From Solidesulfovibrio magneticus RS-1 (GTDB lineage Bacteria > Desulfobacterota > Desulfovibrionia > Desulfovibrionales > Desulfovibrionaceae), in the NCBI RefSeq assembly GCF_000010665.1, contig NC_012796.1, forward strand, positions 1,550,001-1,614,000: a stretch of DNA of 64,000 bases, written 5' to 3'. How positions within the stretch are numbered: the stretch's first letter is position 1; each line of letters starts with the position of its first letter. Both the position numbers and the translations under genes were made by a program. This document shows positions 31,620 to 43,293 of this stretch, one piece after another. The notes under the pieces are model-generated. The model saw only the letters and a program-made list of their open reading frames with translations, was not told where the DNA came from and did no database searches.

Positions 31620-31848
31620 TATTGGTCTGCGCTATCGCATGAGGGGATGACGAGAGATGGCCAGGTTCCCCCGCGTCTTCTTACGGCCTGTAAGGGAGGA
31701 GAAGCAGAGGGCTCATTCGTGACGTTGCCATGGCACAGGCCACCCGGAAAGACTTGTTTTTCTTGTCGCCCTATCTGATGATGTCTTGTATGATAAGAAA
31801 AATAGGTTGTCTGTATTGGCTGGTTCCGGCTGGCGCAGAGGATGCGCG

Positions 31849-34092
31849 ATGGCGGAGTCGGGAAGGGTGGCTGGGCAGTGGTTTGCTCACAGCATGGTGG
31901 GGGAGCCCAAGGAGACGTGGCAGACGCTTGAAGCGCATCTGGGCGGTGTGAGCAGGCAGGCCCGGGAGTTCGCCAGCCGTTTCATGGCGGGCGAGTGGGG
32001 CGCGCTAGCCGGATTGCTTCACGACGTCGGCAAATATACCGAGGCTTTTCAGCGACGTCTGGCCGGAGCTGGCGTCCGGGTCGACCATTCCTCGGCCGGC
32101 GGAAAGCTGGCCGTGGACCGCTTCAAGGGGGCGGGCAAGTTCCTCGCCTACGCCATTGCCGGCCATCATGCCGGGTTGCCGAACGGCCGCGACAATGATC
32201 TGGCTTGCCTCTCGGCCCGGCTCCAGGCCGCTGTCGTGCCCGAGCCGGCCCTGGCCCTGGCCGTCGGACCAGCGCCCGCAGCGTTGCCTTTTGCCCAGGC
32301 CCTGGGGCGCACCGGCTTTCAGTGCGCCTTTTTCATCCGCATGCTCTATTCCTGTCTGGTGGATGCCGATTTCCTTGATACGGAAGCCTTCCTCGATAAA
32401 GAGAAAAGCGCCCGGCGCGGCGGCTATCCGACGCTGGGAAGCATGACGGAGCGTCTGACCGCCCATCTTGCCGGGTTTTCCAACAAGGCCGCGCCTTCGC
32501 CCATCGATCCCTGGCGGGCCAAGGTGCTGGACTGGTGCCGGGAGGCGGCCGGCGAGAAACCGGGGCTTTTCGCCCTCACCGTGCCGACAGGGGGCGGCAA
32601 GACGCTGTCGTCCCTGGCCTTTGCCCTCAAGCACGCCCTGGCCCACGGCCTGGACCGGGTCATCTACGTCATTCCCTACACCAGCATCATCGAGCAGAAC
32701 GCCGACGTTTTTCGGCGAGCTGTGGGTGACGACGCTGTGGTGGAGCATCACAGCAATTTTGATCCCTGGAAGGAGCGCGACAGCGGCGCTTCCGAGTCCG
32801 AGCCGGCCGGCGACGAGGGGCTGGCCAAGCGCCATGAACTTGCTGCCGAGAACTGGGACGCGCCCTTGGTCGTCACCACCAGCGTGCAGTTTTTCGAGTC
32901 GCTTTTCGCCCACCGTGCATCGCGCTGCCGCAAACTGCACAATATCGCGCGCAGCGTGGTCATTCTGGACGAGGCGCAGATGCTGCCGCCCTCGCTCTTG
33001 CGGCCGTGCCTGGAGGCTCTTCGCGAGCTGCACGAGAGCTATGGCGCGACAGTGGTGCTGTGCACGGCCACCCAACCGGCGCTGACCCGGCGCGACGGGT
33101 TTGCCTTCGGCTTCGAGCCGGGACTCGTGCGTGAGATCGTGCGCGACAGGTCCGGTCTGTTCAAGGAACTCAAGCGCACGCGGGTGACGCATCTGGGCCA
33201 GCTTGCCGACGACGAGCTGGCGCTGCGTCTGCGTGGGCACGAGCAGGTGTTGTGCGTGGTCAACACCCGGGCCCACGCCCGGCGGCTCCATGGCCTGCTT
33301 GGCAAGGGAGCGGGAGTTTTTCATCTGAGCGCCAGCATGTGCCCGGCCCATCGCACGGAAAAGCTCAAGCACATCCGGGCGGCGCTAACGGCCGGGGAGC
33401 CGTGCCGGGTGGTCAGCACCCAGCTCATCGAGTGCGGCGTGGATGTGAGCTTTCCGGTGGTCTACCGGGCCGAGGCCGGGGTGGACAGCGTGGCCCAGGC
33501 GGCCGGGCGTTGCAACCGCGAGGGGGAGTTGCCCCAGGGCGCGGTGTACGTGTTTGCCGCCGAGAAAGCGCCGCCGGCCGGGGAGTTGCGCCGGGCGGCC
33601 GAGGAGGGCCAGGTGGTGCTGCGGGCCTTTGCCGATCCGCTGTCGCCCCAGGCGGTGACTGCCTATTTCGAGGCGCTTTACTGGCGCGTCGGCCCGGAAG
33701 CGCTGGACAAACGAACGGACCGAATCGCCGGGATTTTCGCCGCCCTGCAGGCAGGAGCCAACACCCTCGATTTTCCGTTTCGCACGGTCTCCCAGGAATT
33801 CCGGATGATCGAACACTTGTGCGAGCCGGTCATCATCCCCTGGGGCGAGGAAGGGGAGGACCTTGTCCGTGGGCTGGAGCATGCCGAGCACACGGGACGC
33901 CTGGCCCGGCGCGCCCAGCGGTATACGGTTCAGGTACCGGCCCGGGTGCGGGCGGCGTTGGTCGCGGACGGCGACGTGGAATGCGTTCAGGAACGGTTTT
34001 TCGTGTTGCGCCGCATGTCGCGCTATGACGACGAAGAGGGTTTGTCAGGGGAGGGGGCCGGGGTTTTTCGGGCTGAGGACTGGATACAGTAG
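31849..34092 (+). CDS. cas3: CRISPR-associated nuclease-helicase Cas3 (type I-C)
   Basis: 747 residues. The N-terminal HD nuclease has HSMV near residue 13, LLHDVGK near 55 and a later GHHAGL histidine pair. The helicase has Walker A PTGGGKTLS, DEAQMLPP as the DEAD-box variant, and STQLIECGVDVSFP plus QAAGRCNREG as motifs V and VI. Cas3 is recruited by target-bound Cascade and degrades the DNA. The start at 31,849 follows AGAGGA by seven bases and places the HD motif at the usual distance; an in-frame start at 31,786 lacks a ribosome site. It is separated from cas5c by about 310 bases holding a degenerate repeat. Confidence 0.95.
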   Translation: MAESGRVAGQWFAHSMVGEPKETWQTLEAHLGGVSRQAREFASRFMAGEWGALAGLLHDVGKYTEAFQRRLAGAGVRVDHSSAGGKLAVDRFKGAGKFLAYAIAGHHAGLPNGRDNDLACLSARLQAAVVPEPALALAVGPAPAALPFAQALGRTGFQCAFFIRMLYSCLVDADFLDTEAFLDKEKSARRGGYPTLGSMTERLTAHLAGFSNKAAPSPIDPWRAKVLDWCREAAGEKPGLFALTVPTGGGKTLSSLAFALKHALAHGLDRVIYVIPYTSIIEQNADVFRRAVGDDAVVEHHSNFDPWKERDSGASESEPAGDEGLAKRHELAAENWDAPLVVTTSVQFFESLFAHRASRCRKLHNIARSVVILDEAQMLPPSLLRPCLEALRELHESYGATVVLCTATQPALTRRDGFAFGFEPGLVREIVRDRSGLFKELKRTRVTHLGQLADDELALRLRGHEQVLCVVNTRAHARRLHGLLGKGAGVFHLSASMCPAHRTEKLKHIRAALTAGEPCRVVSTQLIECGVDVSFPVVYRAEAGVDSVAQAAGRCNREGELPQGAVYVFAAEKAPPAGELRRAAEEGQVVLRAFADPLSPQAVTAYFEALYWRVGPEALDKRTDRIAGIFAALQAGANTLDFPFRTVSQEFRMIEHLCEPVIIPWGEEGEDLVRGLEHAEHTGRLARRAQRYTVQVPARVRAALVADGDVECVQERFFVLRRMSRYDDEEGLSGEGAGVFRAEDWIQ

Positions 34093-34205
34093 CAACGCGG
34101 GTTTTCTCCGGCCGGGCGGTTGGCGGAGGAAGCCCTATAGGTGTTTGATTCCGTTTGTCTATTTATATGTCGCATGAAATATATTTTTTGTTTGATACTA
34201 AATTC

Positions 34206-34222
34206 AGTTTATCGTAAAGGCT
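34206..34222 (+). promoter_or_regulatory. Predicted target of the repeat-like guide in cas promoter region
   Basis: Seventeen bases preceded directly by TTC (34,203-34,205), the PAM typical of type I-C systems. They match the pseudo-spacer at 34,281-34,297 at 14 of 17 positions. Mismatches are at 6, 8 and 12; positions 6 and 12 are the ones not paired in type I crRNA-DNA hybrids. TTGATA at 34,192-34,197 could be a -35 element, putting the site between -35 and -10; another reading (TTGTCT at 34,155, TATATT at 34,180) would put it just after the start of transcription. Confidence 0.6.
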
Positions 34223-34235
34223 AAACGACTTCTCT

Positions 34236-34300
34236 GCAGCCCCGAGGTTTGGCTGGGGGGGCCGGGGAGTGGATTGAAACAGTTTTTTGTAGAGGCTTGT
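34236..34300 (+). ncRNA. Candidate crRNA-like regulatory RNA (degenerate repeat plus pseudo-spacer)
   Basis: GTGGATTGAAAC at 34,269-34,280 is identical to the last 12 bases of the CRISPR repeat and so contains the full 11-base 5' handle that Cas5c leaves on type I-C crRNAs. Upstream, the conserved repeat stem is replaced by looser pairing (CCCCG at about 34,240 with CGGGG at 34,263). The 17 bases that follow form a pseudo-spacer with a target 75 bp upstream. This is the layout of CreR or CreA RNAs, which guide Cascade to a promoter for repression without cleavage. The RNA would lie in the leader of the cas5c operon. Confidence 0.6.
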
Positions 34301-34401
34301 CAATGATCTTGCCCTGGGGGGAGGGAAAAGGAGGGCCGCGAATCAGGAAAAACACCCTCGGCAGTGACCATGCTCCAGCGCACACCAGCAAGGAGGTTGG
34401 C

Positions 34402-35058
34402 ATGTCCTTTGGCGTCAGACTCAAGGTCTGGGGCGATTTCGCCTGCTTCACGCGCCCCGAGATGAAATCCGAGCGCGTCTCCTATGATGTCGTCACGCCG
34501 TCGGCCGCGCGCGGCATTCTGGAGGCGATCTATTGGAAACCCGGCATTACCTGGGTCATCGACCGCATCCACGTTTTGAGCCCCATCCGTTTCACCGCCA
34601 TTCGCCGCAACGAACTCGGCGGCAAGATCCCCTACGGCAACGTCAGATCCGCCATGAAGGGCGGCGCGCCCCAGCCGCTGTTCATTGAAGACGACCGGCA
34701 GCAGCGCGCCGCGCTGGTGCTGCGCGACGTGGCCTACGGCATAGAGGCCCATTTCGAATTGACCGGCCAGGACGACAACGCCGCCAAGCATGCGGAAATG
34801 TTCAAGCGCCGGGCGCGAAACGGCCAGTGCTTCAACCAGCCGTACCTGGGCTGCCGCGAATTCCCGGCCTTTTTCGAGTGGGTGGACGGTCCCTGGCCGG
34901 ACTCGGACTTGCCAGCCCAGGACCGCGACAAGGATCTGGGTTTCATGCTCCACGACATCGATTTCGCCCACGACATGACGCCGAGGTTTTTCCGGGCCCA
35001 GCTGGCCGGCGGCGTCATCGACGTGCCCCGGTTCGACGCGGCGGAGGTGCGGACATGA
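34402..35058 (+). CDS. cas5c: Cas5c, Cascade subunit and pre-crRNA endonuclease
   Basis: 218 residues with the type I-C Cas5 (Cas5d) hallmarks: GVRLKVWGDFACFTRPEMKSERVSYDVVTPSAARG at the N-terminus (RAMP ferredoxin fold) and a basic central region. In type I-C this subunit replaces Cas6, cutting the repeat 11 bases from its 3' end and holding the 5' handle. The start at 34,402 has AAGGAGG upstream; a frame open further upstream runs through the degenerate repeat and is rejected. It overlaps cas8c by four bases. Confidence 0.93.
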   Translation: MSFGVRLKVWGDFACFTRPEMKSERVSYDVVTPSAARGILEAIYWKPGITWVIDRIHVLSPIRFTAIRRNELGGKIPYGNVRSAMKGGAPQPLFIEDDRQQRAALVLRDVAYGIEAHFELTGQDDNAAKHAEMFKRRARNGQCFNQPYLGCREFPAFFEWVDGPWPDSDLPAQDRDKDLGFMLHDIDFAHDMTPRFFRAQLAGGVIDVPRFDAAEVRT

Positions 35059-36764
35059 TCCTCACCTCCCTGGCCGTCTACTACGACCGCCTGAGCCAAG
35101 AGCCGGAACCGGCCGTGCCGCTGTCCGGGTTTTCGCGACAAAAAATCCACTTCGCCCTGCACATCGACGCCGACGGCAAGCTGGCCGAGCCGCCGGTCTT
35201 CGATCTGCGCCAGACCGAAGGCAAGAAAACCGCGCCCCAGGAACTGGTCGTGCCCGAGGCCGTCAAACGGTCGGTGGGCGTTGCCGCCAACTTCCTGTGG
35301 GACAACACCGGCTATGTGCTCGGGGCCGACGACAAGGGCAAGCCCGAGCGCACGGCCAAGACCTTCGAGGCGTTTAAGGCCCGGTGCCACGAAATCGGCG
35401 ACGGCCTGGACGACGCCGGCATGGCCGCCGTGCTGTCTTTCCTCGACGCCTGGAACCCGGCCGACGCGCCGGACCTGCCGGGCTGGGAAGAGATGGTCAA
35501 GGGCTGCAACCTCGTTTTCCGGCTGGCCGGCGGCGGATTGGGCTATGTCCATGAGCGCCCGGCCGTGCGCCAGGCCTGGCTGGATCACCTGGCCGGCGCG
35601 TCCAGGGAGCGGCGGGGCATGTGCCTGGTCACCGGCCAGGACGCGCCCATCGCCCGCCTGCATCCGAGCATAAAGGGCGTGCGCGACGCCCAGTCGTCAG
35701 GCGCGGCGCTCGTTTCCTACAACCAGGAGTCGTTCACCTCCTACGGCAAGGAGCAAAGCTACAACGCGCCCGTGGGCGAGCCGGCCGTTTTCGCCTACAC
35801 CACGGCGCTCAATCATCTGCTGCGCAAGGGCAGCCGCCAGCGGGTCCAGATCGGCGACGCCACCACGGTGTTTTGGACCGAACGCGCCAGCGAAGTCGAG
35901 GGACTCCTCGGCTTCCTGTTCGACCCCACGGCCGACGACGGCACCGAAGACGCCGTCCGGCGGTTTCTGGAAGCCGTGCGCGACGGCAAAAAGCCGCGAG
36001 ACGACCCGGAGGAACTGCAAAGCGGCTTTTTCATCCTGGGCCTGGCCCCCAACGCCGCCCGCCTGTCCGTGCGCTTTTGGCATGTGGACACCGTGGCCGG
36101 CGTGTGCGCCGCCGTCGGCCGCCACTTCGCCGATCTGGCCATGGACCGGGCCTTTGACAACGAGCCCGAATTCCCGGGGCTATGGCAACTGCTGCGGGAA
36201 ATTGCCGCCCAAGGGGAACTCAAAAACGTCAATCCGGCCCTGGCCGGAGCGCTCATGCGTTCCATACTGACCGACGCGCCCTATCCGGCCAGCCTGCCGC
36301 GCGCCGTCATCACCCGCATACGGGCCGATCAGACCGTCAATTACCCGCGCGCGGCCATGCTCAAGGCCTATCTCGTCCGCAACCGTCAAAAGGAGGTGTC
36401 CGTGAGTCTCGATCCCAACTGCACCGACGTCGGCTATCGCCTGGGACGGCTGTTCGCCGTGCTCGAAAAAGCCCAGCAGGAGGCCATCCCCGGAGCCAAT
36501 ACCACCATCCGCGACCGTTACTACGGCTCGGCCTCGGCCACCCCGGCGGCGGTGTTTCCGCAACTCATGCGGCTGGCCCAACACCATATCGAAAAAGCCG
36601 AATACGGCGGCGTCTCCGACCGGCGCATCGAGGAAATCCTGGAAACCGTCCAGACCTTCCCCAAGCATCTGTCCCTGGACGAGCAGGGCATGTTCGCCAT
36701 CGGCTACTACCATCAGCGCCGCGAGAACTACAAAAAGACCGCCAAGACCAAGGGGGAGGACTAG
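35055..36764 (+). CDS. cas8c: Cas8c (Csd1), large Cascade subunit
   Basis: 569 residues. It begins MILTSLAVYYDRLS, the conserved N-terminus of Csd1, and has the family's LCLVTG-like region with a short cysteine-containing motif and the GRLFAVLEKAQQEA element near residue 480. Cas8c recognises the PAM and, through an internal start, also supplies the small subunit in type I-C systems. ATG at 35,055 overlaps the cas5c stop (ATGA), so translation is coupled. Confidence 0.93.
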   Translation: MILTSLAVYYDRLSQEPEPAVPLSGFSRQKIHFALHIDADGKLAEPPVFDLRQTEGKKTAPQELVVPEAVKRSVGVAANFLWDNTGYVLGADDKGKPERTAKTFEAFKARCHEIGDGLDDAGMAAVLSFLDAWNPADAPDLPGWEEMVKGCNLVFRLAGGGLGYVHERPAVRQAWLDHLAGASRERRGMCLVTGQDAPIARLHPSIKGVRDAQSSGAALVSYNQESFTSYGKEQSYNAPVGEPAVFAYTTALNHLLRKGSRQRVQIGDATTVFWTERASEVEGLLGFLFDPTADDGTEDAVRRFLEAVRDGKKPRDDPEELQSGFFILGLAPNAARLSVRFWHVDTVAGVCAAVGRHFADLAMDRAFDNEPEFPGLWQLLREIAAQGELKNVNPALAGALMRSILTDAPYPASLPRAVITRIRADQTVNYPRAAMLKAYLVRNRQKEVSVSLDPNCTDVGYRLGRLFAVLEKAQQEAIPGANTTIRDRYYGSASATPAAVFPQLMRLAQHHIEKAEYGGVSDRRIEEILETVQTFPKHLSLDEQGMFAIGYYHQRRENYKKTAKTKGED

Positions 36765-36767
36765 ACC

Positions 36768-37637
36768 ATGAGCCAGCCCATCGCCAACCGCTACGAGTTC
36801 GTGTTCCTCTTTGACGTGGAAAACGGCAACCCCAACGGCGACCCCGACGCCGGCAACATGCCGCGCCTGGACCCGGAAACCAGCCATGGCCTGGTCACGG
36901 ACGTGTGCCTCAAGCGCAAGATCCGCAATTTTGTGGAACTGGCCAAGGGCAACGTCAGCCCCTTCGAGATCTATATCCGCGAAAAAGCGGTGCTCGGCAC
37001 GGTGCAAGGCCGCGCCCACGCCGCCGTGGCCAAGGAGGGCGGCAAGAAGGCCGACGCCATCAAGGAAGCCCGGGACTGGATGTGCGCCAATTTCTTCGAC
37101 GTGCGCGCCTTTGGCGCGGTGATGTCGCTTAAGGACAACAACTGCGGCCAGGTGCGCGGCCCGGTGCAGCTCAACTTCGCCCGCAGCATCGAACCCGTCG
37201 TGCCCCTGGAAATCAGCATCACCCGCATGGCCGTGGCCACCGAGAAAGAGGCCGAAAGCCAGTCCGGCGACAACCGCACCATGGGCCGCAAACATATCGT
37301 GCCCTATGGCCTGTATCGGGCCGAAGGCTTCATCTCGGCTCATCTGGCCGCCCAGACCGGCTTTTCCGAGGACGACCTGGAATTGCTGTGGCAGGCGCTT
37401 TTGGTCATGTTCGATCACGACCATTCTGCCGCGCGCGGCAAGATGAACGCTCGCAAGCTCGTCGTCTTCAAGCACGAGTCGATGCTCGGCAACGCACCGG
37501 CCCAGAAGCTTTTCGATCTGGTCGGCGTGTCCCGGGCGACCGACAAAAGCTCGCCGGCCCGGGCCTACAGCGATTACGCCGTGGCGGTCGATGCCGCCAA
37601 CCTGCCGGTCGGTGTGGAGCTGATCGAAAAGCTCTAG
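36768..37637 (+). CDS. cas7c: Cas7c (Csd2), Cascade backbone
   Basis: 289 residues starting with the Cas7 signature [27 protein letters not shown]-fold subunit that polymerises along the crRNA. It starts three bases after cas8c and the gene is of normal length with no defects visible. A long stretch of basic residues in the thumb region and the C-terminal DYAVAV are consistent with the I-C subfamily. Confidence 0.93.
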
Positions 37638-37651
37638 CAGGGGAAAAAGCC

Positions 37652-38284
37652 ATGTTCAGCGAGGAGGCGCTGCTCCCGATTTCGGCCTTGCAACATCTGC
37701 TCTTTTGCCGGCGGCAATGTGCGCTGATCCACATTGAGCGGGCCTGGGCCGAAAACGTCTTCACGGTCCAGGGCGGCATCCTCCACGAACGGGCCCATGA
37801 GCAGGGGTACGAGTCCCACGATGGCATACGCGTCGCCCGGGCCGTATCCCTGCGCTCCTTGCAACTTGGCCTGACGGGCGTGGCCGACGTGGTGGAGTTC
37901 CACCCGGCCAGCGATGGCCTGGAGACGGCCTTCCCCGTGGAATACAAGCGCGGCAGGCCCAAGGCCGAGGCCTGCGACACGGTGCAGTTGTGCGCCCAGG
38001 CCTTGTGCCTGGAAGAAATGCTGGGAAGGCCCGTGCCGGCGGGCGCGCTTTTTTACGGACGTACCCGTCGTCGTCTGGGCGTGGCCTTCGACGCCGCCTT
38101 GCGGGAGACGACGCAGGCGGCCTGCCAGGATTTGCACGCCTTCATCCGGGCCGGGCTCACGCCCGAGGCTATGTACGACTCCCGCTGCGCCTCCTGTTCC
38201 ATGGAAGGGGCCTGCCTGCCGCGCGCCTGCGGCGGCAAACGCTCGGTTCGGACCTATCTGCGCCAGGCGCTGGAGACGCCATGA
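37652..38284 (+). CDS. cas4: Cas4 nuclease, adaptation factor
   Basis: 210 residues. It has the RecB-like nuclease region (VEYKRGRPKAEACDTVQLCAQALCLEE with the catalytic acidic-lysine pattern) and four cysteines for an iron-sulfur cluster: CRRQC near residue 20 and CASCSMEGAC near 190. Cas4 trims and orients prespacers with the correct PAM. The start at 37,652 follows AGGGGAAAA. The stop overlaps the cas1 start. Confidence 0.92.
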   Translation: MFSEEALLPISALQHLLFCRRQCALIHIERAWAENVFTVQGGILHERAHEQGYESHDGIRVARAVSLRSLQLGLTGVADVVEFHPASDGLETAFPVEYKRGRPKAEACDTVQLCAQALCLEEMLGRPVPAGALFYGRTRRRLGVAFDAALRETTQAACQDLHAFIRAGLTPEAMYDSRCASCSMEGACLPRACGGKRSVRTYLRQALETP

Positions 38285-39312
38285 AACGTCACCTCAATAC
38301 GCTGTATGTGACCACTCAGGGCGCGTATCTGTTCAAGGACGGCGAGACGTTGGCCGTCAAGGTCGAGGAGACGGTGCGGTTGCGCCTGCCCATCCACACC
38401 GTGGCCGGGGTGGTGTGCTTCGGCCAGGTGTCGGTCAGTCCGTTTCTGCTCGGTCACTGCGCCGAGAACAACGTGGCCGTGAGTTTCCTGACAGTAAACG
38501 GCAAGTTTCTGGCCAAGGTGCAGGGGCCGGCCTCGGGTAATGTGCTGTTGCGCAGGCAGCAATACCGCATGGCCGACGATACGGCGACCTGCGCCGCGAC
38601 GGCGCGCTTTTTCCTCACCGGCAAACTGGCCAACGCGCGCACCGTGCTGTTGCGGGCGCTTCGCGACCATGGCGAGAAGATCGACGCTTCGGCCGTGCGC
38701 CGGGTCGTCGACCGGCTGAGCCAGCATCTGACGGGTCTTGAGGCCCGAAGCGACCTGGACGCCCTGCGCGGTTTGGAAGGCGACGCGGCCCACGCCTATT
38801 ACGGCGTGTTTGATCAGCTTATCGTCTCGTGCCATGAGGCGTTCCGGTTTGCCGGCCGCAACAGGCGGCCGCCCCTGGACCCGGTCAATTGTCTGCTGTC
38901 GTTTCTCTACACGCTGCTGGCCCATGACGTGCGCTCGGCCCTGGAGACGACGGGTCTTGATCCGGCGGTGGGTTTTCTGCACCGCGACCGTCCGGGCCGC
39001 CCGGGCCTGGCCTTGGACATGATGGAGGAGTTCCGGCCGTTTTTCGCGGACCGGCTGGCCTTGACGCTGATCAACCTGGGGCGTGTGCGGCCCAAGGGGT
39101 TTATCACGGCGGAGACCGGGGCCGTGCTCATGGACGAGGCCACGCGCAAGGAGGTGCTTATAGCCTATCAGGAGCGCAAGCAGGATGTGGTGGAACATCC
39201 GTTTTTGCGGGAGAAGATGCCGCTCGGCCTGCTTTTTCACATGCAGGCGACGCTTTTCGCCCGCTATGTTCGGGGTGATCTGGACGGCTATCCGCCGCTT
39301 TTGTGGAAGTAG
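38281..39312 (+). CDS. cas1: Cas1 integrase (type I-C)
   Basis: 343 residues. Visible conserved residues: glutamate in LRGLEGDAAHAYY, histidine in GFLHRDRPGRPGLALD, and the acidic DMMEEFRPFFADR helix, which make the metal site for spacer integration. It is intact, so spacer acquisition should have been possible. It starts within the cas4 stop (ATGA). Confidence 0.95.
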   Translation: MKRHLNTLYVTTQGAYLFKDGETLAVKVEETVRLRLPIHTVAGVVCFGQVSVSPFLLGHCAENNVAVSFLTVNGKFLAKVQGPASGNVLLRRQQYRMADDTATCAATARFFLTGKLANARTVLLRALRDHGEKIDASAVRRVVDRLSQHLTGLEARSDLDALRGLEGDAAHAYYGVFDQLIVSCHEAFRFAGRNRRPPLDPVNCLLSFLYTLLAHDVRSALETTGLDPAVGFLHRDRPGRPGLALDMMEEFRPFFADRLALTLINLGRVRPKGFITAETGAVLMDEATRKEVLIAYQERKQDVVEHPFLREKMPLGLLFHMQATLFARYVRGDLDGYPPLLWK

Positions 39313-39315
39313 GCC

Positions 39316-39606
39316 ATGTTGGTGCTGGTGAGCTACGACGTGGCGACGGCTGATGACGGAGGATCTGGTCGGCTGCGCCGTGTGGCCAAGGCGTGCAAGG
39401 ATTATGGCCAGCGCGTGCAGTACTCGGTGTTCGAGTGCCTGGTTGATCCTGGCCAATGGGAGCGTTTGAAGCATCGTCTGCTTGGTTTGATTGACCCGGA
39501 CAAGGACAGTCTGCGTTTTTATTACCTTGGGTCGAACTGGCGGGGGAGGGTAGAGCATGTCGGCGTCAAGCCCGGCGTGGACCAGGAAGGGCCGCTTATC
39601 ATCTGA
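39316..39606 (+). CDS. cas2: Cas2 (type I-C)
   Basis: 96 residues beginning MLVLVSYDVATADD, the ferredoxin-fold strand with the conserved aspartate, and later QYSVFECLVDPGQWERL. It forms the central dimer of the Cas1-Cas2 complex. It starts three bases after cas1 and is the last cas gene before the leader. Confidence 0.95.
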   Translation: MLVLVSYDVATADDGGSGRLRRVAKACKDYGQRVQYSVFECLVDPGQWERLKHRLLGLIDPDKDSLRFYYLGSNWRGRVEHVGVKPGVDQEGPLII

Positions 39607-39784: not shown

Positions 39785-41828
39785 GTCGCCCCCTGCGCGG
39801 GGGCGTGGATTGAAACGTCTTGCCCACCCACACGCCATTGATCCAGACATCGGTCGCCCCCTGCGCGGGGGCGTGGATTGAAACCGGGAACTCCAGCAGC
39901 ACCGACGGGCAATCCGCGGTCGCCCCCTGCGCGGGGGCGTGGATTGAAACGACGACTGGGCCAAGCAGGTCGCCGCCGGCACCAGTCGCCCCCTGCGCGG
40001 GGGCGTGGATTGAAACCAGGCGGCCACGGAGGTGGTGGCGTAAATGGACATGTCGCCCCCTGCGCGGGGGCGTGGATTGAAACGACCTGGACGAGTACCA
40101 GGATTACGAAATGATCGGGGGTCGCCCCCTGCGCGGGGGCGTGGATTGAAACCCCCCATGCCGCCGCGCCTCCTTGACCAGATCACGTCGCCCCCTGCGC
40201 GGGGGCGTGGATTGAAACCACGAACGGTAATTCCGGTCTCCAGACCATGCCAGTCGCCCCCTGCGCGGGGGCGTGGATTGAAACCATGAGCTGGCCGGCC
40301 CCCAGCGGCGTGGACCCCTGTCGCCCCCTGCGCGGGGGCGTGGATTGAAACCAAGGGCAGCTCGCCGGAACCGACCGAGCCGGCGGGTCGCCCCCTGCGC
40401 GGGGGCGTGGATTGAAACCGGCCGTGCCCGGCAGCGTCCCGGGGCAGGATTCGTCGCCCCCTGCGCGGGGGCGTGGATTGAAACCGGCTTTTGACGTTTG
40501 GAACTGTAGCCCCCTTGGCTTTAGTCGCCCCCTGCGCGGGGGCGTGGATTGAAACCGGCTCCCCGGCCGGATCGGGCGAGGCCAGGAGTTGTCGCCCCCT
40601 GCGCGGGGGCGTGGATTGAAACTGGGCCAACCCAAGCCAATGAAGAGTCTGACTTTCCGTCGCCCCCTGCGCGGGGGCGTGGATTGAAACTTTCCCCTGC
40701 CCTGGTACTTGTAGACCCAGCCGCCGTCGCCCCCTGCGCGGGGGCGTGGATTGAAACTTGCCCTTGAGCAGCAGCCGACCCTTGATGACCGGTCGCCCCC
40801 TGCGCGGGGGCGTGGATTGAAACCTGGATGCCGGTGACCACGCCGCCGGGGCTGTCGCAGTCGCCCCCTGCGCGGGGGCGTGGATTGAAATCAGTCGCAC
40901 AGTGCCGCCGCCGGGGCCAATACGCCCGTCGCCCCCTGCGCGGGGGCGTGGATTGAAACGATATGACCCCCGTCAAGGCCGCCCTGGCCCCGTAGTCGCC
41001 CCCTGCGCGGGGGCGTGGATTGAAACATCCTGACGATGGCCCACAATGACCATCTCCAGGAGTCGCCCCCTGCGCGGGGGCGTGGATTGAAACCAAACGA
41101 TTTGCTTGGTGCCGGAAAAATTGTGCGTGTCGCCCCCTGCGCGGGGGCGTGGATTGAAACCTTAAAGTCGTTGACGCTGGTGGTGGCGCACCACATGTCG
41201 CCCCCTGCGCGGGGGCGTGGATTGAAACCTCCGACGCAATCTCTGTCACCTACCGAAGCTCGTGTCGCCCCCTGCGCGGGGGCGTGGATTGAAACATCAG
41301 GATGTACAACAGGTCGGCAAACGCTTTTGGGTCGCCCCCTGCGCGGGGGCGTGGATTGAAACGCGGCCAGGGTTGTGTCCACGCCAACAAACTCGCGTCG
41401 CCCCCTGCGCGGGGGCGTGGATTGAAACCTATCCAACTCGTCCAGGAGGCTGTCGGCCGCAAGTCGCCCCCTGCGCGGGGGCGTGGATTGAAACAAACGT
41501 GTCCACGGCCTCGTCGTCGAAATTGCAGGCGTCGCCCCCTGCGCGGGGGCGTGGATTGAAACCCGGGATGCGCCACTCTCGTGGTCCCCGTCCACCGTCG
41601 CCCCCTGCGCGGGGGCGTGGATTGAAACTGCGTATTTACGTTGCCTGTTGAGGTGGAGGGCGGTCGCCCCCTGCGCGGGGGCGTGGATTGAAACTACGTC
41701 AAAGACGCGTCCACGTCCTGGTTGGTGGCGTCGCCCCCTGCGCGGGGGCGTGGATTGAAACGAGAACCAGCACGTCGGCAAGCCTTTCGTGAGCCGGTCG
41801 CCCCCTGCGCGGGGGCGTGGATTGAAAC
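39785..41828 (+). CRISPR. Type I-C CRISPR array, 31 repeats
   Basis: Thirty-one 32-bp repeats beginning GTCGCCCCCTGCGC and ending GTGGATTGAAAC, with 30 complete spacers of 34 to 39 bases (mostly 34-36) and a 12-base piece of a 31st. The repeat palindrome (CGCCCCC/GGGGGCG) gives the type I-C hairpin. Repeats are otherwise identical; the one at 40,860-40,891 ends in T instead of C. The leader-distal end has no degenerate terminal repeat because an IS1182-family element is inserted at 41,840. Transcription should run left to right. I could not match any spacer to another sequence in the window. Confidence 0.98.
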
Positions 41829-41839
41829 GACAAGGCGTA

Positions 41840-43293
41840 TAACAGCGTGTTGAAAAACTCCGCCAAGTGACCGAGAATCCAGCCATCGGGGTTCCGGAGG
41901 TGATCTGATGGGGCTTGGCCGTCAGGGTGATCAGCAGGGGACGATGTATCTGGCCTGGGATGAGATCCCTCGGTCTCGTGGGCACGCTTTTTACGATCGT
42001 CTCCAGCAGATTCTCCGGAAAGCCGGCTTCGATGGTTTCGCCGAGAAGCTGTGCAAGCCCTTCTATTCCGACAAGGGGCGTCCCTCCATTCCGCCTGGCC
42101 GGTATTTTCGGATGCACCTCGTGGGGTATTTCGAGGGCATCGACAGCGAGCGCGGCATTGAGTGGCGCTGCGCTGATTCGCTTTCCCTCCGGAATTTTCT
42201 CCAGCTTTCGCCCAAGGAGTCTGTGCCGGATCATTCCTCGCTCAGCCGGACACGGTCCCGTCTGCCACTGGCGACCCACCAAGAGGTTTTCACCTGGGTT
42301 CTCAAGCTGCTCAGCAAGGATGGCTTGGTCCTTGGAGGCCGCATTGGCGTGGACGCTTCGACCATGGAGGCCAACGCGGCGCTCAAAACCATCGTGCGCC
42401 GGGACACGAGTGAGAGCTACCGCAAGATGCTCCTGCGCATGACCAAGGAGAGCGGCATCGACTCTCCGATAGATGAGGATCTGGCTCGCATGGACCGCAA
42501 GCGCGTCGGCAAGACGCTTTCGAACAAGGACTGGCGGTCACCGGTCGATCCCGAGGCGAAGATCGCCAAGATGAAGGATGGCCGAACGCATCTGGCGTAC
42601 AAGCCCGAGCACGCGGTGGACCTGGACACCGGCGCGGTGGTGGCGGCCGAGGTGCATGAAGCGGACAAAGGGGACACCTCGACTCTGCAAACGACGCTGA
42701 AAGCCGCTCAAGAAAGTCTGCGGCGGGTCACTTCCACACCGCCATGCCCGGACGACCCTGCGGAACTGGTCGCGGATAAAGGCTATTTCTCCCGGGATGT
42801 CCTCAAGGTTCTGGACGGTGGACCATGGCGGACGAGAATCGCCGAACCCAAACGCAACGGTCTGAACTCCTGGCGTGGCGACCAAGAGGCGCGACGCGCC
42901 GTGTACAACAACCGAATCCGGATATCCTCGATGGTCGGGAAGGCCATGGGAAAACAGCGGACGGAACTGGTCGAAAGAAGCTTCGAGCATACGCTGGACC
43001 GGTGCGGCGGCATGCGCCGGGTCTGGCTCAGAGGACGAGAGAACATCCGGAAACGCTATCTGGTCCATGTGGCTGGTTTCAATCTCGGCCTGCTGATGCG
43101 GGTCAAGACCGGCCATGGCACCCCCAGGGGCTGGGCCAGTGCCTGGCTTGCGCTCATTTGGCCTGACCAGCATCCCTCAATGGCCTATTTGGCCATCGTC
43201 ATGGTGGTCAAGGGACGATGCTGCGGGATCATCCCCATCGCCATCATCTGCGGGGGAGAATAGCCGGAAACAGCTTTTTGCAACGGCCTGATA
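41840..43293 (+). mobile_element. Complete IS1182-family element
   Basis: 1.45 kb with imperfect terminal inverted repeats: the left end begins TAACAGCGTGTTG-AAAAAC and the right end, read on the minus strand, TATCAGGCCGTTGCAAAAAG. One transposase gene fills the interior. It was inserted in the 31st spacer, 12 bases after a repeat, and no repeat follows its right end. A shorter, broken copy is at 28,770. Confidence 0.85.
41908..43263 (+). CDS. IS1182-family DDE transposase
   Basis: 451 residues and uninterrupted. The first 100 residues carry the DUF772-like region (FYSDKGRPSIPPGRYFRMHLVGYFEGIDSERG), then DHSSLSRTRSRL. The DDE core includes GVDASTMEANA for the first aspartate, VADKGYFS for the second, and VERSFEHTLDR with the glutamate. 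The length and motif spacing are normal, so the enzyme may be active. Whether the start is 41,908 or the methionine 12 codons later is not decided. Confidence 0.88.
   Translation: MGLGRQGDQQGTMYLAWDEIPRSRGHAFYDRLQQILRKAGFDGFAEKLCKPFYSDKGRPSIPPGRYFRMHLVGYFEGIDSERGIEWRCADSLSLRNFLQLSPKESVPDHSSLSRTRSRLPLATHQEVFTWVLKLLSKDGLVLGGRIGVDASTMEANAALKTIVRRDTSESYRKMLLRMTKESGIDSPIDEDLARMDRKRVGKTLSNKDWRSPVDPEAKIAKMKDGRTHLAYKPEHAVDLDTGAVVAAEVHEADKGDTSTLQTTLKAAQESLRRVTSTPPCPDDPAELVADKGYFSRDVLKVLDGGPWRTRIAEPKRNGLNSWRGDQEARRAVYNNRIRISSMVGKAMGKQRTELVERSFEHTLDRCGGMRRVWLRGRENIRKRYLVHVAGFNLGLLMRVKTGHGTPRGWASAWLALIWPDQHPSMAYLAIVMVVKGRCCGIIPIAIICGGE

Follow-up and report, generated by a model that had tools for sequence, protein, structure and literature searches.

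The 64,000-nucleotide stretch of Solidesulfovibrio magneticus RS-1 DNA analyzed here (NC_012796.1, positions 1,550,001 to 1,614,000; hereafter the window, with positions counted from its first letter) contains a complete type I-C cas gene set and a CRISPR array, all on the forward strand. The cas3 gene (31786 to 34092), encoding an HD nuclease and helicase, scores above the cut-offs of NCBIfam models TIGR01587 and TIGR01596. After a gap of 309 bases, it is followed by cas5c (34402 to 35058; TIGR01876, 190 bits), which encodes a Cascade subunit and crRNA endonuclease, cas8c (35055 to 36764, start approximate; TIGR01863, 569 bits), cas7c (36768 to 37637; TIGR02589, 402 bits), cas4 (37676 to 38284, start approximate; TIGR00372), cas1c (38281 to 39312, start approximate; TIGR03640), and cas2 (39316 to 39606; TIGR01573). 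The array (39785 to 41828) comprises 31 repeats of 32 bases and spacers of 34 to 39 bases. Thirty of the repeats are identical, and the one at 40860 has a single mismatch, in its last base. Some solved relatives of Cas5c bear the name pre-crRNA processing endonuclease; among the matches listed in a scan of named genomes, the closest named Cas5c is that of S. alcoholivorans (78%). Directly 3' of the array lies a transposase gene (41908 to 43263) whose best hit, to the IS1182 family, is below that family's cut-off.

The cas3–cas5c gap holds an intact repeat 3' end, GTGGATTGAAAC (34269 to 34280, forward strand), within which TGGATTGAAAC (34270 to 34280) is the predicted 5' tag of a processed RNA. 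Exact copies of GTGGATTGAAAC number 31 in the window and 31 in the whole 5.3-Mb genome, 30 in the array and this one, which is the sole exact copy outside it. The original prediction had equated the tag with the 3' end of all 31 repeats, which applies to 30 of them and fails for the repeat at 40860; it was right that the tag stands alone between cas3 and cas5c. Taken to full repeat length (34249 to 34280), the unit agrees with the array repeat at 22 of 32 positions but at only 10 of the first 20. The unit derives from a repeat and lies next to the cas genes, apart from the array, with its tag intact and its 5' part degraded. The minimum free energy structure of 34223 to 34345 contains a possible imperfect hairpin in the degenerate repeat (34228 to 34270, forward strand) that ends within one base of the tag boundary; this hairpin is no better than those of shuffled sequences, and a 46-base fold gives a different structure. 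The first gene 3' of the unit is cas5c, while cas3 lies upstream of it and is not downstream of the targeted site described below.

The 17 bases behind the tag (34281 to 34297, forward strand) form a candidate guide, or pseudo-spacer, with pairing segments at positions 1 to 5, 7 to 11, and 13 to 17. They are identical at 14 of 17 positions to a target at 34206 to 34222 on the same strand, directly preceded by a putative PAM, TTC (34203 to 34205). The mismatches fall at positions 6, 8, and 12, and similarity ends after base 17. The match, the adjoining TTC, the placement of two of the three mismatches at 6 and 12, and the end of similarity had all been claimed beforehand, and each is borne out. 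The guide is identical to the strand carrying the 5'-TTC, which is the right orientation for a type I crRNA, and it should not target its own gene because GAAAC precedes it there. TTC has been reported as a validated type I-C PAM (PMC10810201). With positions 6 and 12 left free, the target is the only TTC-flanked site of the organism's own genome that has one mismatch to the guide; the guide itself has two, the five other sites found have three each, and a reversed control pattern returned one site. Within the surrounding 510 bases, the pair scores 12.5, against 9 for the best of 200 shuffled guides.

The target lies in the presumed promoter region of cas5c-cas2, and the guide has limited complementarity to it, although the promoter status of this site rests on weak hexamers. 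Joint scoring of the window gives as its best promoter a -35-like TTGATA (34192 to 34197, forward strand), aligned with TTGATT and TTGAAT in two orthologs, together with a weak -10, TAAAGG (34215 to 34220), inside the target. When hexamers are considered singly, TATCGT (34210 to 34215) is picked as the -10, and a consensus scan of 34050 to 34420 returned no promoter at its threshold. Because neither the hairpin energy nor the promoter scan of the window gave support, the case rests on comparison with related loci.

The nearest comparison is with two same-genus orthologs (L046 and L074). Their guides have changed at positions 5, 9, 14, 15, and 16, and their targets carry the identical changes, while positions 6, 8, 12, and 17 do not covary in the three orthologs. 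Each guide matches its own target at 14, 14, and 15 of 15 positions and the targets of the others at 8 to 12. The alignment also shows a block 3' of the guide (34298 to 34314, forward strand) in which 12 of 17 columns are invariant, compared to 10 of 17 in the guide. It contains GTC at 34299 to 34301, like the start of the array repeat (GCA in L074), and is a possible second half-repeat.

For a wider survey, Cas5c was found in 60 of 199 genomes of the same bacterial family, at 65 places including that of the window; 60 of these loci were taken with flanks, with upstream pieces added for most, and four more were used as first retrieved. They were joined by 80 loci from named genomes, 9 from viral contigs, and 8 from plasmids, giving 157 loci after removal of five duplicates (L104, which is the L046 locus, L107, L172, L190, and L194); L122 also had a further tag pointing to its one target, which was left out. 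The 80 named loci are the best 80 of at least 586 candidates, not a random sample, and many come from metagenome bins that may carry an incorrect taxon. A lone tag was defined as one with at most one mismatch outside arrays, and its next 17 bases were scored with positions 6 and 12 ignored against all TTC- or TTT-flanked sites within 4,500 bases. A search range of about 450 bases had missed distant targets, and its extension to 1,500 and then 4,500 bases added L042 and L056. This rule (17 bases, positions 6 and 12 free, TTC or TTT) was devised once the copy in the window had been seen, so the window is not an independent test of it; the other loci are. Some candidates were rejected: repeat-unit matches in L082 and L122 (AAC) and matches to runs of N in L039 and L050 looked strong and were gone once TTC or TTT was required and arrays and N were masked, with L122 retaining another, TTC-flanked target.

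A target flanked by TTC or TTT with a score of at least 9 was found for 30 of 128 lone tags, against 1.27 expected from 3,734 random positions. At scores of at least 10, 11, and 12, there were 28, 23, and 21 tags, with 0.55, 0.07, and 0.0 expected, respectively. An earlier count, in which one locus entered twice (as L046 and L104), had given 20 of 111 tags at 12 or more versus none of 2,136 random positions. The original prediction had named as one of its checks that repeat, seed, and TTC be conserved among related type I-C loci; such pairs occur in 29 of the 157 loci (13 of the 65 in the family), and the other 128 have no scored pair. All 29 pairs were selected for TTC or TTT, and 26 have TTC. 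Position relative to cas5c separates the tags: exact copies no more than 1 kb upstream of it have a target in 27 of 37 cases, those further upstream in one of three (L167), and those downstream of its start, many of them array-like, in one of 18 (L095). Among tags with one mismatch, the figures are 1 of 15, 0 of 18, and 0 of 37, respectively, or 1 of 70 in total. Eight of the 34 loci with an exact tag at most 1 kb upstream lack a target at the score threshold (L040, L044, L049, L060, L062, L118, L119, and L185). The plasmid loci L193 and L195 to L200, from Nitratidesulfovibrio vulgaris, Zymomonas, Acidisoma, Thermus, Brevibacillus, and Rhizobium, gave no pair with a score of 8 or more.

Judging by sequence titles, the pairs extend beyond the Desulfovibrionaceae to Desulfonema magnum (L106), Desulfarculales (L149), Desulfobulbaceae (L171), and Desulfohalobiaceae (L174). 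They also occur in Pseudomonadales (L105), Gammaproteobacteria (L122 and L177), Aestuariivirgaceae (L128), Neomegalonema (L152), Delftia tsuruhatensis (L168), Rhodobacteraceae (L169), Burkholderiaceae (L170), and Halomonas sp. Y3 (L179), as well as in Pelosinus propionicus (L167; Bacillota), Gastranaerophilales (L180; Melainabacteria), and one viral contig (L184).

Several loci depart from the common layout. The viral contig IMGVR_UViG_3300048837_002140 (L184) carries a cas5c locus and a tag with a TTC-flanked target (score 14), and could be host DNA filed in error. A second Cas5c subgroup (L095, L073, and L075) has its lone tag about 4 kb downstream of cas5c; that of L095 is between cas7 and cas4, with a TTC-flanked target just 3' of cas7, and L073 has a 15 of 15 match, yet TCA precedes its target. 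Upstream of cas5c in L044 and L049 there are two or three successive repeat tags, with 13 to 14 bases between units and weak targets. In L084, one guide matches two TTC-flanked sites, at -279 and -156 relative to cas5c; TTGACA lies inside the site upstream of the unit and TATAAA in the downstream one, and this guide may control its own promoter too.

The 29 pairs define a pairing rule. By selection, 400 of the 435 scored cells match: positions 1 to 5 in all 29 pairs, positions 7 to 11 in 25, 25, 25, 28, and 27 pairs, and positions 13 to 17 in 28, 26, 28, 23, and 20 pairs. Because of this selection, a Fisher test (p ~2e-31) is not unbiased; the informative result is the chance-level agreement at the unscored positions. 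Position 6 matches in 7 and position 12 in 5 of the 29 pairs, although copied sequence would agree at both. Positions 18 to 35 match in 129 of 486 cells (27 pairs, with L046 and L104 being the same locus), and in these pairs positions 18 to 40 are likewise at chance. Guides match their own targets at a mean of 13.8 of 15 positions and the targets of other loci at 4.8. Type I effectors flip out every sixth guide base. Since the segments match while positions 6 and 12 and those beyond 17 are at chance, the guides appear to be kept for the three segments. To judge from these comparisons, the related systems of distant bacteria have different guides made by the same building rule.

Of the 29 pairs, 20 have minus-strand and 9 plus-strand targets, and many targets abut or overlap promoter-like hexamers. 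For minus-strand targets, the -35 of the best joint promoter within reach lies 0 to 4 bases after the PAM in 9 of 20, compared to 4.7% of 317 control GAA sites; with a promoter score of at least 8, this placement is seen in 8 of 20 targets and 1.6% of the 317 controls. TTGA or TTGC(T/C), the TTGC form having been chosen after seeing the rows, stands 0 to 4 bases from the PAM in 12 of 20 (TTGA alone in 10), compared to 3.5%; the remaining 8 have no -35-like motif beside the PAM. Among the nine plus-strand targets, the best -10-like hexamer lies at position 9 to 11 in L084, L167, and L106 (5/6) and at position 7 in L057; in the other five, including the window, it is elsewhere or weak.

The fold of 32 units was examined, and two forms recur. 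In one, a local hairpin ends at the tag, like an array repeat (for example, in L039, L061, L169, L170, and L171). The other has a stem that opens with the base 5' of the tag and involves the sequence that follows the guide, directly behind GT; it resembles a unit that has shed its outer half-repeats, with the inner halves paired across the guide. This second form comprises 12 to 14 pairs with at most one mismatch, G-U allowed, in L040, L042, L056, L086, L149, and L174 (0 of 200 shuffles as good) and 7 pairs in L084 (p = 0.055), and L128 has an across-guide stem not behind GT (p = 0.02). The unit in the window fits neither form, its best in-context fold ending at the tag and being no better than shuffles.

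Taken together, these comparisons make it highly likely that the product of the lone unit is a CreR-type regulatory RNA of the type I-C system, which represses cas5c-cas2. A transcript over the unit would be cut by Cas5c at the tag boundary, in keeping with reports that Cas5, not Cas6, trims the crRNA in type I-C (PMC10013973), and the resulting RNA, its short guide preceded by the tag TGGATTGAAAC, would load into Cascade. The complex would recognize TTC at 34203 to 34205, pair guide and target in the three five-base segments that match, and so cover the presumed cas5c-cas2 promoter. The loss of identity after base 17 suggests that the R-loop would stop there, leaving Cas3 unlicensed and the DNA uncut. 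By analogy with CreR in other subtypes, repression would rise with free Cascade and drop when crRNAs or anti-CRISPRs occupy it. With the target 5' of the unit, the repressed cas5c-cas2 message would carry the guide in its leader, and cas3 would be outside this control. Binding of this kind has been reported for the type I-C Cascade of Xanthomonas albilineans, which bound and repressed a TTC-flanked reporter promoter in Escherichia coli (PMC10810201). The immune system would thus probably turn itself down when abundant. The original comparison with CreR and CreA proves apt, and its reading as Cascade autoregulation gains support from the 29 of 157 loci, the every-sixth-base rule, and the ortholog covariation.

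Other readings of the unit have to account for the same observations. The guide might repress a toxic RNA or small peptide encoded in the stretch from the promoter to cas5c and thereby penalize any loss of Cascade, as in CreTA. This finds backing in related loci. The count covered 17 intervals in which target and tag are at least 100 bases apart or the guide lies upstream of its target; L095, L167, and loci with a spacing of 0 to 99 bases were left out. Short hydrophobic ORFs that have a Shine-Dalgarno-like site are present on the coding side in 10 (L084, L086, L128, L152, L168, L169, L174, L177, L179, and L180) and on the reverse side in one, compared to 0.87 expected from shuffles, under a hydrophobicity limit fixed after seeing the ORF rows. 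These ORFs lie upstream of cas5c, behind the targeted site, and are toxin-like by look; a Pfam scan of 8 of the 10 peptides and one other gave none over the cut-off. From their sequences, the loci concerned look like CreTA-type guards. As for other ORFs, L042 and L056 share a conserved one of 54 to 55 amino acids (MEYRK...) with several cysteines between target and guide unit, the L042 copy having no Pfam hit above the cut-off, and in Pelosinus propionicus (L167), whose unit lies about 590 bases 5' of cas3, the stretch from target to cas3 holds an ORF of 61 codons that has a strong Shine-Dalgarno-like site. In the window itself, the spacing of target and tag is 64 bases, and a scan for ORFs having a Shine-Dalgarno-like site and at least 12 codons found none there. 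Start codons from 34192 to the guide open 1 to 10 codons or run on in the cas5c frame, and those at 34364 and 34370, 3' of the guide, open 31 to 33 codons in another frame with no Shine-Dalgarno-like site by eye. A toxic RNA without an ORF may be encoded in the window, but for this locus we regard a CreTA-like guard as very unlikely.

A functionless leftover of a decayed array, with a spacer derived from the cas promoter, would agree with the degraded 5' part of the repeat and the weak hairpin in the window. Decay, however, does not restrict mismatches to every sixth base, break off identity at base 17, or couple changes in guide and target, and of the exact lone tags downstream of cas5c, many of which are array-like, just 1 in 18 has a target; we give this explanation a very slim chance. 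The tag and possible hairpin 5' of cas5c, in its presumed leader, might instead be a site at which Cas5c cleaves its own mRNA, an autoregulation by message cutting and not by Cascade guiding. Such cleavage could act in addition, but as a full account it is highly improbable, leaving the target, the PAM, and the pairing rule unexplained. Finally, while a single match of 14 in 17 is not overwhelming alone, chance accounts for roughly one of the 30 scored tags, the tag–target counts exceed the controls, and the orthologs covary, so that chance resemblance is hardly tenable for the group and has next to no probability for the window. Comparative sequence evidence for a CreR-type autorepressor in type I-C is strong.

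CreR has been listed for types I-B, I-E, and V-A (PMC13131331). With these RNAs, the unit in the window shares a predicted crRNA-like product, its position as a small unit beside cas genes, and its partial complementarity to a presumed cas promoter (PMC13131331 and PMC12737573). It differs in belonging to type I-C, with trimming by Cas5 instead of Cas6 (PMC10013973), in matching in three five-base segments (17 bases), and in its place in the presumed leader of the repressed operon. A search of the open literature showed no I-C CreR among the matches listed; subscription papers, including the original CreR paper with possible I-C candidates, were outside its scope. The unit is CreR-like in a type I-C system: the CreR kind is known, and the I-C case appears to be new. 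CreA of CreTA is reported from I-B haloarchaea (PMC8501985) and I-F Acinetobacter (PMC10097628). CreA likewise has a degenerate repeat, and that of H. hubeiense pairs its guide at positions 1 to 5 and 7 to 11 beside a TTC PAM; CreA action is described as needing Cascade but not Cas3 (PMC8501985). In contrast, the window has no small ORF under the targeted site and its identity reaches base 17, whereas some related I-C loci do have an ORF. Racr, the solitary repeat RNAs of phages, resemble it as lone repeat units, and one type I-C Racr has been described (PMC10651486). However, Racr are phage-borne anti-CRISPRs without guide use, whereas this unit lies inside a complete host cas locus and its guide matches the cas promoter region. 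In type II systems, tracr-L is a natural guide with which the effector represses a promoter through a short match. The same likeness holds for scaRNA (PMC9458426). Both differ in using Cas9, a class 2 effector, and a different RNA.

For type I-C systems in several phyla, we lean somewhat towards a common picture in which self-regulating guides consist of a tag and positions 1 to 5, 7 to 11, and 13 to 17 matching a TTC-flanked promoter site, with nothing beyond. These guides would be wired either to the Cascade promoter or to genes for short hydrophobic peptides that possibly punish the loss of Cascade, and at some loci a closed form, with inner half-repeats paired across the guide, would be offered to Cas5c for processing. 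The finding would add type I-C to the systems whose cas genes are under RNA-guided control, with the Cascade subunit Cas5c as guide processor. The 5+5+5 identity after TTC would provide a simple rule for finding such guides without sequence conservation. A 2025 review asks whether CreTA-like mechanisms exist in other CRISPR types (PMC12737573), a question on which the I-C loci with small ORFs bear. In addition, the rule suggests how much pairing holds the I-C Cascade on DNA without calling Cas3, and such a pairing limit would serve gene silencing with native I-C systems.
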